The notes under the pieces: model-generated
The model's input: the letters and a program-made list of their open reading frames with translations, nothing else
Database searches by the model: none
Told to the model about the DNA's origin: nothing
Origin: Bifidobacterium breve
Lineage (GTDB): Bacteria > Actinomycetota > Thermoleophilia > Miltoncostaeales > Miltoncostaeaceae
DNA: 52,471 bases
Assembly: GCA_945861935.1 (NCBI GenBank)
Contig: CAMAVU010000005.1
Location: 1-52,471, forward strand
Direction of reading: 5' to 3'
In this document: positions 4,522-12,964 of the stretch, in pieces
How positions within the stretch are numbered: position 1 is the first letter of the stretch
How the letters are laid out: each line of letters starts with the position of its first letter
Position numbers and translations under genes: made by a program

Positions 4522-6966
4522 TCAGCGCACCAGCGTGAAGTCGCGGATCCGCATTATGCCCCTGGGCTCGTGCGACCCCCGGCGCGACACCGGCAACGCC
4601 GACTCCAGGCCGATCCGCAGGTAGCGCGTGCCGCGCAGATTGCGAAGGTGCGCGAGGGATAACTCGACCTGCTGAACGCCGGGGGCCAGCACCAGATACC
4701 GCGCGTTCAGGTAGTGGCCGCCGGGGGTCACCACCAGACGCCAGGGCTGGTCCCGGGGCCCGGCACTCCTGAGGTCCACGGTCATCCGGAGCGCCCGCCA
4801 CCCGGCCCAGTTCGCCTTCGGCCCGTCGGCACCCACGAAGTCACGCATGACCTCCGGCGCGATGATGTTGCCGTTGTTGATCTCACGACCGCTGGCCTAA
4901 TACCTCCGGCTGATCGTGGCCACGATGTCGTCCCCGACCACGCGCACTGTGGCTGGTCTCGCCCGCGCACGCCAGCCCCTGAGTTCAGCGGCCGATGCGA
5001 ACAGCGGCCGCTCGGTGCGCCGGCGCAGAGCGAACGACGCCAGCTGGAGCGTGCGACCGGCGGAGGCCCGCATTCGCGACCGGCTGATGACGCGGCTGCG
5101 GCGGTCAATCCGCCCCTCGCGGTCACGGCTCACCACCACCTCGGTGCGCTGGGCCGTTATCCCGCGGAGGCGGTATCGCCCGTGGGCGTCGGTGACGACC
5201 TGCAGGCCGCCCGCCCGCACCGTTGCCCCGCGCACCGCCACGCCGCGGTGCGTCACCCGGCCGACCACGGTGACACCCGGGCGCGCGAGCAGGCGATCGA
5301 CGAGCCACCGGCGGAGCGCACCGAACTCCTCCGCACCGGTGGCCAGCACGGGCAGGTATGGCGGCCGGTTGTACTCCCCGCATGGGGTGAATCCGGTGTT
5401 CGGACCGGAGTACTCACGCGCGGTCGCATCGGCCAGGTGAGCGGCGGCAGCCGGGTCACGTGCCGTGAGAGCAGCGATGAGCGACGCGTCCTCCAGCCCG
5501 TCGCGCACCGCAACCATGCGCAGCGACCTCTGCAGGGGCCGCGTCAGATCCCCGGTCGGGTAGAGCAGGCTCGCCTCGCCGTTGCCCCCCACCTCGCGGC
5601 CGCCGCCCCCGCACCTGTCGGGCTGCGTCACATGGCTCAGACCCCACGGCTCGGACCGGGGGTCCCGCACAGCGCCCTTCTTCCGCCACGCGGTGAGCGC
5701 CCAGTAGAAGGTGCCCTGCACGTCCATCTGCTCGGCCAGCCAGCCGATGAGGCGGGGCTCGGCCAGTGACTTGTCGATGAGCAGGTTGGGCGTGTAGCGC
5801 TGCGTGTCCGAGCCATAGAGGTACCACCACGTGCCCTTGCCCTCCGCGCGCAACTGGTCCATACGCGAGCGGTGAAGGAAGTAACTCCAGAGGGTCGGCG
5901 CCCAGATGTCCACCACGGAGCCCATACCGGCCCGCGCGGCGTCCGTGGGCGCCTCGGTCACCATCACCCGCGCCACCGAACCGGCATCGCGCAACTGCTG
6001 GGCCGCGCGTGCCACCACCGGGTATTCGTCCTCGGTGGGCTCATCCACCGGCAGGGCAAACAGCGGACGCCCCAGTGACCGGTAGGTGGCCGACATGCTC
6101 GACGCCCAGGTGGCGCGCCGGGGATCGGAGTAGTCCCGATCGGTGATCGTCGCGTAGAGCGGGAGGTAGGGCATCTCAAGCATCGGAAAGCCCAGCGCGG
6201 CCCCGCCCGCGAGGCGCTGCCCGGGGAGGCCGGTCCAGTCGCCCACCCACGTGGCCTCCGCGATGGACGGTGCGCTGCCCGGAATCTGGCTCGGGCTGAT
6301 GCCGTGTGCCCGCAGCATCGGGAGCGAGTGGACGTGCAGGCCGTTCTGGAGGCGCTCATCGGTGTCGGGTACCCCGTAGAAGCGGGCGATCGAGTTCACG
6401 TCCAGGCGACCCACGAAGGGTCGGCGATCGCGGTCCACCGCGATCGGAAGGACGTCGAGGGTGATACCCACCGTTCCCAGCGACCCGAAGTTCACGGTGC
6501 CCCGGTACCGGCCCGCGGGCTGCCCTGCAGGCACGGCCACCTCCACCAGCACCCCCCGGGTCTCGCCGCCTGCGAGCGTCGCCGGGTCCCCGGGCGCCAG
6601 GTCGGTGAGCGGATCCGGGTAGCGGTCGGATGCCAGCCGGTCCACGCCCGTGGACGGGCGCGTGATCGGCACGTAGTCCACCACGCTCACGCTCACGCGC
6701 GATGCGGCGATCACCGCGGGCCCGGACAGCAGGGACGGCTGCGGGGTGATGGTCACCGGCCCGTCCGGCCGGAACACGACGATCTGGCCCTCGACCTCGC
6801 CCTGCCCGGCCACAAGTTCGATCGCCGTTCGCGGCTCGGAGGGCGGGACGGACGACGGGAAGACGGTCTCGTTCGGGTCGAGCACCCACGGGGCGGGTGC
6901 CGCGCCTGCCATCGCCGGGACGCACAGGGTCAGTGCGATGGCGATGGTCGTGAGGGCGCGGGACAT
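4522..6966 (-). pseudogene. Secreted DUF4091-type glycoside-hydrolase-like protein with an in-frame amber codon
   Basis: The frame runs 815 codons from ATG 6966 to a stop at 4522, but a TAG at 4899-4897 splits it into 689 residues plus 124 residues in the same frame. A signal peptide (about residues 1-23) is followed by a DUF4091-like region. This has VDEPTEDEYP (about 315), GKGTWWYLYG (about 375) and an FYWALTAW strand (about 420), typical of this hydrolase-like family. A carboxypeptidase-regulatory-like beta domain lies near 555-605. The last domain starts near residue 655 and continues past the TAG (GREINNGNIIAPEVMRDF, then WRLVVTPGGHYLNARY), resembling a carbohydrate-binding sandwich. A nonsense mutation, readthrough or base error could each explain it. 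A short product of 4897-6966 would lack most of the final domain. Confidence 0.65.
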
Positions 6967-8642: not shown

Positions 8643-9302
8643 ATCTCCACGAGGACCGACGACGCCCCGGGCGACGGCACCCCCGACGCCCGGAAGACGT
8701 TCTCAGATATCGCCAGGTTCCTCGCCGCCCCGCTGGTGCGGGCCTTGGTGCGCGCGGGCGTCACCCCGAACACCATCACGGTGTTCGGCTTCGTGCTCAC
8801 CGCAGGCACGGCGGTGCTCGCGGGCTTCGGGTACTGGATTGCGGCCGGCGCGCTGTTCGTGATCGGCTCCGGGAGCGACATGTTCGACGGCTCCGTCGCA
8901 CGGATGAGCGGCCGGGCCACGCGCTTCGGCGCGTTCCTCGATTCGAACCTCGATCGCCTGGGCGAGGCCCTGGTGCTCGGCGGCATCGGGATTGCCATGA
9001 CGCTCGAGGCACGCACCTGGGCGGTGGCGATGACCTTCCTCGCGCTGGCCGGATCCTTCCTCGTGTCGTACACACGCGCCCGGGCCGAGGGGCTGGGCGT
9101 TGACTCGAACAGGGGCGGTCTGCTCAGCCGGACCGAGCGCCTGATGCTGGTGGCCATCGCCCTGCTCCTGGGGGGCTGGGGAATCGCCATCGAGGTCGTC
9201 ATGACCATCCTCGCGGCGGGGACACTGGTCACCTTCGCGCAGCGCCTGTTCTACGTACACTCCGTACTTCGGGACGCCGACGGGCCCCCGGACGCCACGT
9301 AA
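8643..9302 (+). CDS. CDP-alcohol phosphatidyltransferase (probable phosphatidylinositol-phosphate synthase type)
   Basis: About 219 residues of a multi-pass membrane enzyme. The catalytic motif D-x2-D-G-x2-A-R-x8-G-x3-D-x3-D is complete: DMFDGSVAR followed by [10 protein letters not shown]. Several hydrophobic helices flank it. Because ino1 follows 22 bases downstream, I infer an inositol-phosphate acceptor, as in actinobacterial PIP synthases; phosphatidylglycerol-phosphate synthase is the alternative. No ATG, GTG or TTG precedes the N-terminus. A GGAAGG Shine-Dalgarno at 8631-8636 points to ATC 8643 (spacing 6) as the initiator; CTG 8637 lies too close. The start is therefore uncertain. Confidence 0.75.
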
Positions 9303-9324: not shown

Positions 9325-10419
9325 GTGAGCACGACCGTCAACGTCGCCATCATCGGCGTCGGCAACTGCGCCTCGTCCCTTGTGCAAGGTGTGCAGTACT
9401 ACAAGGACGCCGGTGTGGACGACTTCGTCCCAGGCCTCATGCACTCGGTTCTGGGTGGCTACCACGTGAGGGACATCAACTTCACGGCGGCGATCGACAT
9501 CGACGCGCGCAAGGTCGGCACCGACCTGTCCGAGGCCATCTTCAGCGAGCCCAACAACACGCTGAAGTTCTCGGACGTGCCGAAGGCCAACGTCACCGTG
9601 GCACGTGGGATGACCCATGACGGGCTGGGCAAGTACCTCTCCGAGATCATCGAGAAGGCCCCCGGCGAGACCGCCGACATCACCGGCCTCCTCAGGGACA
9701 CGAAGACCGACGTGGTGGTGTCGTACCTGCCGGTGGGCTCGGAGCAGGCCACCAAGTGGTACGTGGAGCACATTCTGGCCGCGGGATGCGGCTTCGTGAA
9801 CTGCGTCCCGGTGTTCATCGGCCGGGAGCACTACTGGCAGGAGCGCTTCCGCGAGGCCGGCGTGCCCATCGTCGGTGACGACATCAAGAGCCAGGTGGGT
9901 GCCACGATCGTGCACCGGCAGCTCGCCCGCCTCATGCGCGAGCGCGGCGTGCGCCTGAAGCACACCACGCAGCTGAACTTCGGAGGCAATACCGACTTCC
10001 TCAACATGCTCGAGCGCGAGCGGCTGGAGTCGAAGAAGATCAGCAAGACCAACGCGGTCACCTCCGTCCTCGACTATGAGATGGACCCCAAGGACATCCA
10101 CATCGGGCCGAGCGACTACGTGCCGTGGCTCACCGACCGCAAGTGGGCACACATCCGCCTGGAGGGTCAGGCATTCGGCGACGTGCCGCTGAACATCGAA
10201 CTGAAGCTCGAAGTCTGGGATTCGCCCAACTCGGCCGGGGTGGTCATCGACGCGGTGAGGTGTTGCAAGCTCGCCATGGACCGGGGCGTCTCGGGGACCC
10301 TCGAGGGGCCGGCGGCCTACTTGATGAAGAGCCCGCCCATCCAGCATCCGGACGACGTCGCCCGCGAGATGACCGAGGCGTTCATCCGCGGCGAGAGCAA
10401 CGCCGCCCTCCCCGTGTAG
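9325..10419 (+). CDS. ino1: Inositol-3-phosphate synthase
   Basis: A 364-residue myo-inositol-1-phosphate synthase of the short prokaryotic type, converting glucose 6-phosphate to inositol 3-phosphate with bound NAD. The N-terminal NAD motif [11 protein letters not shown] is clear at about residues 8-18. Family blocks include DIDARKVG (about 56-63), [13 protein letters not shown] (about 133-145), [12 protein letters not shown] (about 190-201) and [12 protein letters not shown] (about 218-229). The GTG start follows GGGGAG. It sits between the phosphatidyltransferase and a glycosyltransferase, so it probably supplies inositol for phosphatidylinositol-type lipids. Confidence 0.92.
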
Positions 10420-10432
10420 GGATGGACTCGCG

Positions 10433-12250
10433 GTGAGCACCTCACCGCTCCGGATCGCGCTGGTGTCGCCCCACGCGTTCCCGCCGGGCGACGATGTGGG
10501 ACACGCCGTCGCCGCGGAGGCTGACGGCCTGGCCCGCCGGGGCCATGCCGTCACGATCCTGGCGCCGGGGCGGGGCCGCCCGGCGGCAGACGCCGGGCGC
10601 AGGCGCATCGAGGACCTGGAGGCGGGCGACCCCGGCGCGGTGGCCGCAGAGCCCGGTGGGCCGCCGCTGGTCGTGGCCACGTCCCGGGCGCTCCGGACCG
10701 GCACGCGGGGCACGGGCCGCCGCCTAGGGGGACCCATCGAGTCGGCATCCGGACTCGAGATCGCCCTCGGGATGGGTGGCTTCGACGTGGTTCATCTCCA
10801 TGAGCCCCTGGCCCCGTCTCCCGCGCTCGCGGCGCTTCGCCACGCCACCGGTGTGCGTGCGGTCACGTTCCATCGCACCGCACCACTCGCCGGCGTGGCA
10901 TTCGTCCGCCCGCTGGTGGACCGTGCGCTGGCTCAGGCCGACGTGAGGATCGCGCTCTCCGGGGCCGCGCGGCATGTCCTGGCGGGGGTGCTGCCCGGCG
11001 AATACGAGGTGGTGCCGGCAGGCATCGACCCCGCCCTGTTCGGGCCGCCCCCGACCGCACCGGGCCTCGTCGTGGTCGCCCGCGACCGTGACCGGACGGG
11101 GCTGAGGTTTGTGCTCCGTTCCCTCGTCGGCACCGACCCCACCCGGACCGGGCCCATCACAATCATCGGGCCGCCCGATGCCCCGCAGCGCACGCGTCTC
11201 GCCGTGCCGAAGGCCCTGCGCGATCGCACAACCGTGATACCGGATACCGGCGCGGCAGTGCGTGGGGAGGCACTGCGCCGCGGGCGGATCGCCCTTTTCC
11301 CGACGGCTGAGGAGGCCGCGAGCCCCGTGCTGCAGGAAGCCATGGCCAGCGGTCTCTGCGTGCTGTCCGCCCGGTGCCCCGGGGCCGACGAGGCCCTGGG
11401 GCCCGACGGAGGCGTGACCCTGCCGCCGTTCAATGCCGATGCCTGGGCGGATGCCGTGGCCAGTTGCCTGGGCAACCCCGCGCGCGTCGCCCTGTTCGGG
11501 GCGAATGCCGAGACCCGTGGACGGGAGCGCACCTGGGATCACGTGGCCGCGGACCTCGAGGGTCTCTACCGCGGCGTCGCATCGCGACCGGCGCGGACGG
11601 TGACAGACGGCGCCGGGGCACTGGTCCTCGCCGACCTGCGTGTGTGCGCCGGGCCGGGATTGAGCGCCCGCGAGATCGTGCAGGCGGCAGAAGAGCGCGG
11701 CGTCCGCATCGTGGCCGTGGTCGCGCCCGGTGGGATCGAGCCGGCACTTGAGGTGCACCGGGTCGCCCCCGACGGGCTTCATGTGATCGTGGGGCAGGAG
11801 ATCGAGACGCGGGAAGGCGTGATCGCCGGGCTGTTCCTCACACACCCTGTGCCCGACGGCCTCTCGCTCGACGATTCGCTGCGCCGTGTGCGCGATCAGG
11901 GCGGCATCACCGTCATCCCGCACCCCGAGGTGACGATGGCGCCCCCCGCCGCGGCCCTCCGCGCCGTCAGCCATCTGATCGACTGCCACGAGGGCCTCAC
12001 GCCAGCCCGGCCGGCCGCCCAGGCCACCGAGGGCGCCCTGCTGCTGCAACGCGCGGGCCTTGTGGTGACAGCCGGCAGCGGTGCCACCACCCCCGCCGAA
12101 ATCGGTACAGCGGGCGTCATGATGCGCCCGTTCGCGGGACCCGACGGTTTTCTGGCCTCTCTCGGCGAGGCCCGTCCCGTGCGACGGCGGCGCAGCCTTC
12201 GGAGTCTCTCGGCCCGTTCCTCGCGCCGCACGTCGCAGGGGGAGACCTAG
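10433..12250 (+). CDS. GT4-family glycosyltransferase fused to a degenerate PHP domain
   Basis: A 605-residue fusion. Residues 1 to about 380 form a GT-B glycosyltransferase: RIALVSPHAFPPGDDVGHAV at the N-terminus, a DVVHLHEP strand, YEVVPAGIDP at the linker, and the EEAASPVLQE (E-x7-E) nucleotide-sugar motif. Residues about 400-580 resemble a PHP phosphoesterase (VIVGQEIETREG, then GGITVIPHPEV). However the DLHxH and TDHN-type metal motifs are replaced by DLRVCAG and VAPGG, so the domain is probably not catalytic. The C-terminus is Arg/Ser-rich. Lying 13 bases after ino1 it may glycosylate an inositol lipid, in the manner of PimA, but the acceptor is an inference. Confidence 0.75.
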   Translation: MSTSPLRIALVSPHAFPPGDDVGHAVAAEADGLARRGHAVTILAPGRGRPAADAGRRRIEDLEAGDPGAVAAEPGGPPLVVATSRALRTGTRGTGRRLGGPIESASGLEIALGMGGFDVVHLHEPLAPSPALAALRHATGVRAVTFHRTAPLAGVAFVRPLVDRALAQADVRIALSGAARHVLAGVLPGEYEVVPAGIDPALFGPPPTAPGLVVVARDRDRTGLRFVLRSLVGTDPTRTGPITIIGPPDAPQRTRLAVPKALRDRTTVIPDTGAAVRGEALRRGRIALFPTAEEAASPVLQEAMASGLCVLSARCPGADEALGPDGGVTLPPFNADAWADAVASCLGNPARVALFGANAETRGRERTWDHVAADLEGLYRGVASRPARTVTDGAGALVLADLRVCAGPGLSAREIVQAAEERGVRIVAVVAPGGIEPALEVHRVAPDGLHVIVGQEIETREGVIAGLFLTHPVPDGLSLDDSLRRVRDQGGITVIPHPEVTMAPPAAALRAVSHLIDCHEGLTPARPAAQATEGALLLQRAGLVVTAGSGATTPAEIGTAGVMMRPFAGPDGFLASLGEARPVRRRRSLRSLSARSSRRTSQGET

Positions 12251-12316: not shown

Positions 12317-12964
12317 ATGAGCGCCGAGTCACCTGCCACTCCCGAGCCCGGACCCCGTGAGGGGCGGGACGTGCCCCGCATCGAGGACGCGTACCTCGAC
12401 CGCGCGATCCGCGAGATGCACCTGCTCGAGGAGCGCATGGACGCCTGCCCGGGATGCCGGGCCGCGGGCACGTTCCCCGTGAAGGCATCGGGATCGCCTA
12501 CCGCCGATGTGATGCTGGTGAAGTGGCAGTCGTCGCTCTCAGAGCGGCAGGAGGGCGTCTCGTTCTACGGGCGCTCGGGCGAGGCCATCCGCCGGAGCGT
12601 GGAGCGCCTCCACGTGGACCCGGCCACGCTGTACGGCACCCTGGTGATCAAGTGCCCGCACACCGACCCAACAGCCCCGATGGGCGACGGACTCGAATGG
12701 CTCGCGGAGGAGATCCGGATCGTGCGCCCGCGCATCATGGTGGTGATGGGCGACCGCACCATCGCCGCCATCGATGCCCTGGCTTTCCCCATGTCGGAAC
12801 CGCTGCCCGTGGAGCACGGGGTGGTCACCCGCTGGACCCCGGCCAGCGAGGTGCTGGTGACGCCCGACATCGACGACTCGCTCGATGAGCAGGATGCCAA
12901 GCGACGCTTCTGGGCAGCGCTGCGGGCGCTCGGTGACTGGCACGCGAACGAACCCCCATGGTGA
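12317..12964 (+). CDS. Divergent uracil-DNA glycosylase superfamily protein
   Basis: A 215-residue protein with the outline of family 4 UDGs: an N-terminal CPGC (about residues 43-46), a VMLV strand, a GVSFYGRSGEAIRRS block where UDGs have PFVGRAG, LVIKCPHTDP (about 111-120), and RPRIMVVMGDRTIAA (about 135-149) matching the usual P-x-(V/I)-x-(V/L)-G-x-x-A strand. The catalytic GEAPG-type loop is replaced by KWQSSLSERQEG, and only three plausible Fe-S cysteines are seen. It may have lost glycosylase activity or act on another substrate. It follows the glycosyltransferase by 66 bases on the same strand. Confidence 0.65.
   Translation: MSAESPATPEPGPREGRDVPRIEDAYLDRAIREMHLLEERMDACPGCRAAGTFPVKASGSPTADVMLVKWQSSLSERQEGVSFYGRSGEAIRRSVERLHVDPATLYGTLVIKCPHTDPTAPMGDGLEWLAEEIRIVRPRIMVVMGDRTIAAIDALAFPMSEPLPVEHGVVTRWTPASEVLVTPDIDDSLDEQDAKRRFWAALRALGDWHANEPPW

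Follow-up and report, generated by a model that had tools for sequence, protein, structure and literature searches.

The window, a 52,471-nucleotide stretch of DNA, encodes in one open frame with a GTG start (positions 10433–12250, + strand; 605 aa) a PimA-like glycosyltransferase (GT) of the GT-B type (GT4) fused to a degenerate PHP domain. The GT-B domain spans residues ~5–383 (10445–11581, +); Pfam places GT4 domains within residues 26–360, and the top PDB match is PimA (2gej, E = 1.5e-14). The degenerate PHP domain occupies residues ~398–584 (11624–12184, +) and has 2 of 9 metal ligands left (E456 and H497), the former H-x-H metal motif now reading R403-V404-C405 (11639–11647, +). The protein ends in an Arg-rich tail of residues 585–605 (12185–12247, +). 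A sequence-only reading of the window had described a GT–PHP fusion that keeps an E-x7-E motif in its GT part and carries DLRVCAG, VAPGG, VIVGQEIET, and IPHP in its C-terminal part. All of these motifs are present in the protein, as E294-x7-E302, DLRVCAG at residues 401–407, VVAPGG at 429–434, VIVGQEIET at 451–459, and IPHP at 495–498.

The gene for Ino1, inositol-3-phosphate synthase (9325–10419, +), ends 13 nt 5′ of the fusion gene and is preceded by a CDP-alcohol phosphatidyltransferase gene of the PIP-synthase type (8673–9302, +), with a provisional start codon. The latter product has both Arg residues of the inositol-phosphate site and scores below both NCBIfam cut-offs (133 versus 170 and 139 versus 180). 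The downstream neighbor belongs to the uracil-DNA glycosylase (UDG) superfamily (12317–12964, +). Elsewhere in the window, an open reading frame on the opposite strand (4897–6966, −) matches the glycoside hydrolase 123 catalytic domain with 38.8 bits (cut-off 23.1).

Families of the class were numbered f1 to f11, and the window falls in f1. Of 199 class genomes searched, 173 had a match, 39 of them in f1 and the remaining 134 spread over ten other families; 3 f1 genomes among those listed had no match. The alignment comprised 88 sequences: 34 belong to f1, and the other 54, representing the ten other families, were picked by hand from the listing for family coverage and not at random. The f1 set excludes four genomes that yielded only fragments (G061, G131, G158, and G122) and one fetched later (G152); duplicate records (L035–L050) and a distant GT hit (L051) were likewise excluded from the alignment. 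Three records whose proteins are 69% to 81% identical to that of the window bear titles that look mislabeled: L043 and L046 are titled Bifidobacterium breve and L037 Acidobacteria. In 396 genomes of the phylum, the matches outside the class, among those listed, end by residue 434 of the 637-residue query and are without the PHP part, and the PHP hits in 41 genomes from other classes lie in frames of 159 to 451 aa; the fusion was thus seen only in this class. The viral contigs searched contained no relatives. Among the titles listed in a literature search, which left subscription papers mostly uncovered, we found no description of a GT–PHP fusion or of an actinobacterial PIP phosphatase. In one f3 genome (G192; C21 and C60), the intact PHP domain matches two frames about as long as a fusion (711 and 680 aa), and four f4 genomes (G004, G010, G016, and G022) possess a stand-alone PHP frame of 242 to 288 aa in addition to the fusion.

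The PHP identity of the C-terminal part is barely visible in the window protein by itself. Pfam reported PHP_C below threshold (cut-off 21.3; 12.6 bits with the whole protein, 14.8 with its C-terminal part) and did not report PHP (PF02811), the NCBIfam model of CehA/McbA (NF038032) matched the domain weakly (E = 0.0013, 18.2 bits; cut-off 80), and a phmmer search of the PDB with the C-terminal part alone returned no match. Five intact homologues that were scanned all exceed both Pfam cut-offs and likewise miss that of CehA/McbA (57.8 to 76.7 bits). In a profile comparison, by contrast, a profile of 19 f1 sequences aligned with one of 18 intact homologous domains over 193 columns (hhalign; probability 100, E = 2.8e-40). 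Against solved PHP proteins, the f1 profile matched 9etk (E = 1.3e-4) and 7ug9 (E = 2.3e-4), with unrelated proteins appearing from E = 0.029, and the profile of the intact homologues matched 3e0f, 7ug9, and 9etk (E = 8.5e-13, 2.7e-10, and 3.6e-10, respectively). By these profile comparisons, residues ~398–584 are homologous to intact PHP domains over their full length, and the fusion proposed from the sequence is real. Structure prediction, suggested in the sequence-only reading as a check of the fold, gave pLDDT values below 50 across nearly the whole domain: AlphaFold2 returned a mean pLDDT of 54 for the full protein, with the PHP domain mostly below 50, from an alignment of 15 sequences in which the others are 69% to 80% identical to the window protein, and a mean of 40 for the domain alone.

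Ligand conservation, which the same reading had proposed to map, separates f1 sharply from its relatives. The nine ligand columns correspond to window residues 403, 405, 409, 431, 432, 456, 497, 550, and 552. Outside f1, all nine ligands are present in 54/54 aligned rows from ten families (Glu for Asp at position 431 in two), whereas all 34 f1 rows have only zero to three: two in 28 rows, three in 3, one in 2, and none in 1 (L057, from which the domain is absent). The claimed loss of the PHP metal motifs therefore holds for the window, which keeps only E456 and H497, and for its family. The change extends beyond the ligands, since K458, N523, R525, and N531, invariant polar residues of the intact homologues, are also lost in f1. 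Across the 48 columns that are at least 95% invariant outside f1, the family keeps 2/9 ligand versus 22/39 other columns (p = 0.14, not significant); when the columns are divided by residue type, a grouping made after they had been seen and with Ser and Thr placed among the non-polar residues, it keeps 6/22 polar versus 18/26 others (Fisher p = 0.008). Near invariant in f1 are D401, G454, G462, Q489, G491, P496, D517, S549, and G558. Judged by this pattern of conservation, f1 has lost the active site as a whole and kept the core. The C terminus differs too: a hydrophobic SL.Y..Q.LK.L segment is shared by the other families, f1 has the Arg-rich tail in its place, and the hydrophobic moment of the tail does not distinguish f1 (0.38) from the others (0.32).

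The 33 f1 rows with a PHP domain form one clade (FastTree support 1.0), and a single loss of the metal site is the simplest account. The best explanation overall, which we consider probable, is that the PHP domain of f1 descends from an active PHP enzyme and is now a pseudophosphatase: the ancestor of the fusion would have had the full nine-ligand site, which would most simply have been lost once, at the base of f1. That the f1 domain has lost phosphate hydrolysis by the PHP mechanism is highly likely. Its present role is a more evenly balanced matter; we give an even chance to a mainly structural one, in which the domain would pack onto the PimA-like GT-B portion and might or might not have an anion pocket.

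Rates of change and deletions bear on whether the domain retains any role. In the eight closest f1 pairs, all from the window's genus, dN/dS is 0.09 to 0.17 for the PHP domain and 0.06 to 0.12 for the GT part; the corresponding medians across 506 f1 pairs, in which synonymous sites approach saturation, are 0.51 and 0.46. Amino-acid differences in the PHP domain relative to those in the GT part give a ratio of 1.06 in f1 versus 0.16 to 0.67 in nine other families, three of which rest on a single pair. By this measure, constraint on the PHP domain of f1 is relaxed relative to the other families, the domain changing as fast as the GT part. Furthermore, in two genomes (G007, locus L057, and G152, locus L180) the PHP domain has been deleted and UDG directly follows the GT gene. 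Because three other genomes of the genus of G007 (L024–L026) keep the domain, the two deletions were probably separate events. At L180, one stop codon stands between the end of the GT frame and the start of the UDG frame, in the same reading frame.

These deletions, the raised PHP/GT ratio, and the disappearance of 7/9 ligands together with the majority of the invariant polar residues are what would be expected of a vestigial domain on its way out, with no role beyond fold stability and tolerated until deleted. Against this stands its presence in 33/34 aligned f1 rows, from ten genera, with nine near-invariant residues, and we regard a purely vestigial domain as unlikely, if a serious contender.

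A somewhat more doubtful alternative is that the domain has been remodeled for binding, with a metal-free Arg-x-Arg pocket that would bind an anion, for example inositol phosphate or PIP, and tune the GT or the PIP synthase. Of the 33 domain-bearing f1 rows, 31 have R403, 32 have R405, and 30 have both, and the departures from Arg-x-Arg are His-x-Arg in two rows and Arg-x-Cys in the window; R510 (97%) and C518 (91%) are also specific to f1. The retention of E456 and H497 and the low dN/dS of the closest pairs point the same way. However, Cys405 breaks the Arg pair in the window itself, the domain has been deleted in G007 and G152, its constraint is relaxed relative to other families, and K458, N523, R525, and N531 have gone along with the ligands. 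The sequence-only reading had suggested a binding or regulatory role for a retained but non-catalytic fold; its fusion and site loss are borne out, and the role it suggested is possible, with dN/dS and the Arg residues in its favor and the rate of change and deletions against it. A structural or vestigial role is at least as likely as a regulatory one.

The GT half is itself unevenly preserved. Its best PDB match is PimA also in two homologues (L058, E = 1.5e-55; L078, E = 1.8e-15), and for the L058 GT domain the next different protein follows at E = 1.2e-20. The window protein keeps H147, R217, E294, and E302, and the Lys of the RKG motif is replaced by Thr222, with R221 beside it. In PimA, an Arg/Lys pair lies at the donor phosphates, the window equivalents being R217 and T222; R221, adjoining T222, may replace the RKG Lys. 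The GT of the window is a PimA-like GT4 protein and a probable membrane-lipid sugar transferase. The sequence-only reading had taken it as working, which is favored by its E-x7-E and made less secure by the Thr in the RKG motif and by the 17/34 f1 rows without E-x7-E.

Across the alignment, E-x7-E is kept in 17/34 rows of f1, 4/4 of f2, 2/2 of f4, 4/8 of f3 (where the stretch is gapped and uncertain), and 0/40 of f5 to f11, and only f2 and f6 retain the RKG Lys, which is missing from 34/34 f1 rows. A further possibility is that, in part of f1, neither half of the fusion is catalytic and the protein, a double pseudoenzyme, serves PIP synthase and Ino1 as a scaffold or membrane adaptor. G007, where a PimA-like gene with both RKG and E-x7-E exists apart from the domain-less GT gene, fits this proposal, as do the f1 motif counts. 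The window's genus, by contrast, keeps E-x7-E in 13/17 aligned rows, R221 may stand in for the Lys, and the remaining G000 hits of the L058 GT domain (127, 64, and 61 bits) are of other types and weaker than separate PimA-like genes elsewhere (n = 15; 161 to 230 bits), so that the fused GT may be the working one here. We consider the double pseudoenzyme improbable. Of 20 loci chosen for having a second hit, and hence no measure of prevalence, 15 contain a PimA-like gene that stands apart from the fusion and has both RKG and E-x7-E.

The surroundings of the fusion suggest what the intact domain may have done. Neighbors were counted by BLAST on the same strand within set distances, and the common locus in the class consists of PIP synthase, often Ino1, the GT–PHP fusion, and usually UDG. 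In f1 (n = 33 loci, window excluded), 32 loci have UDG, 23 PIP synthase, and 17 Ino1, counts in which 27/33 loci had less than 1.8 kb of upstream sequence; in 12 f1 loci the immediate upstream neighbor is PIP synthase, Ino1 being absent from that position. Among loci with at least 1.8 kb upstream, PIP synthase and Ino1 were found, respectively, in 6/6 and 6/6 of f5, 10/10 and 10/10 of f6, 10/12 and 10/12 of f7, 5/8 and 7/8 of f3, and 2/2 and 2/2 of f4, and neither lies within the distance limits in f8 (1 locus) or f10 (2 loci). UDG follows the fusion in most loci of other families as well, but in 0/11 f6 loci.

Passages of three papers, from 2015 (PMC4634129), 2019 (PMC6506517), and 2022 (PMC9385802), call the phosphatase that converts PIP to PI unidentified in mycobacteria or in archaea and bacteria, and in Bacteroides, as passages of PMC9246714 state, the PIP phosphatase is BT_1525, of the PgpA family. 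PgpA (PF04608) was found in 0/179 class genomes (controls positive, 4/14). Given this absence and the vacancy noted in the literature, the fused intact PHP domain is a candidate by context. It is conceivable, though we put it somewhat short of an even chance, that the intact ancestral domain dephosphorylated PIP from the neighboring PIP synthase to PI, a proposal drawn from gene context; PI so formed would serve PimA-type enzymes as acceptor. PatA, which acts in mannoside synthesis, was detected in 6/119 class genomes, a scarcity that weakens the case for a canonical mannoside pathway in the class.

Two further searches bear on this candidacy. Stand-alone PHP relatives do not support PIP-phosphatase ancestry: in the fetched flanks of 20 loci picked from the listed PHP matches (L160–L179; 37% to 46% identical to the intact fused domain, 19 outside the class and 1 in f4), no PIP synthase, PimA-like gene, Ino1, or UDG was found, and 9/20 sit immediately downstream of an apparent run of purine-synthesis genes, which we take to be purD, purE, purB, purS, and purQ. 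The aligned f1 PIP synthases have the Arg pair that, according to passages of PMC4634129, binds inositol phosphate; f1 should therefore still make PIP and still need a PIP phosphatase. Searching 42 f1 genomes with the intact PHP domain gave one match, possibly the fusion itself, in 33, two matches in four (G000, G105, G125, and G155), and none in five. Neither this search nor that for PgpA found a replacement PIP phosphatase in f1.

Seven of the ten other families combine an intact PHP site with no row having E-x7-E, the mirror image of f1, and many of their genes are thus probably not working glycosyltransferases. Reciprocal decay could account for both patterns, if a bifunctional PIP phosphatase–PimA fusion had lost its GT activity in most families and its phosphatase in f1, leaving there an Arg-lined, metal-free inositol-phosphate pocket; most families would then keep the phosphatase on a lipid-binding pseudo-GT and pass PIP on as PI. 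Such a history, taken as a whole, strikes us as quite improbable.

It is more improbable still that the PHP domain of f1 remains a metal enzyme with an alternative site. D401, E456, H497, D517, and E520 are conserved in f1, and C518 in 91%, but the same five are conserved in the intact homologues and no His, Asp, or Glu is newly conserved in f1 (at least 85% in f1 and less than 30% outside); by conservation, then, no alternative site stands against the dead site described in the sequence-only reading. A mycothiol reading, with the GT as MshA and the PHP domain as the MshA2 phosphatase named in passages of PMC4360819, would accommodate the score of the neighboring Ino1 to the mycothiol INO1 model (538 bits; cut-off 638) and the weak MshA match of the GT (23.5 bits; cut-off 462.5), but PimA is the stronger PDB match (57 bits versus 34 for MshA), and the reading is ruled out by MshC, above cut-off in 0/199 class genomes (controls, 1/14); sub-cut-off MshC matches in 196/199 are probably cysteinyl-tRNA synthetase.

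The intact GT–PHP fusion beside PIP synthase and Ino1, widespread in one class, offers a concrete candidate for a PIP phosphatase, for which f1 provides a natural loss-of-site control and G007 and G152 a natural deletion of the domain. The glycosyltransferase label is doubtful wherever the GT site is gone. In comparison with known systems, the window GT resembles PimA in its GT-B fold with a TFH motif and E-x7-E, and differs in its fusion to a PHP domain and in the Thr in place of the RKG Lys. At the profile level, the intact PHP homologues resemble the solved phosphoesterases 3e0f, 7ug9, and 9etk and the f1 domain resembles the latter two, the window domain differing in keeping 2/9 ligand columns. 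A precedent for the pseudophosphatase is the PHP domain of Escherichia coli DNA polymerase III alpha, which, according to PMC3666897, has lost metal ligands and is kept for the stability and activity of a larger enzyme; there the host enzyme is another one, whereas the window protein has lost 7/9 ligands and the domain is deleted in two relatives. For the intact domain, the closest parallel is BT_1525 of Bacteroides thetaiotaomicron, the only PIP phosphatase assignment found in the literature search, which, in passages of PMC9246714, is clustered with PIP synthase and inositol phosphate synthase but belongs to the PgpA family, not to PHP.
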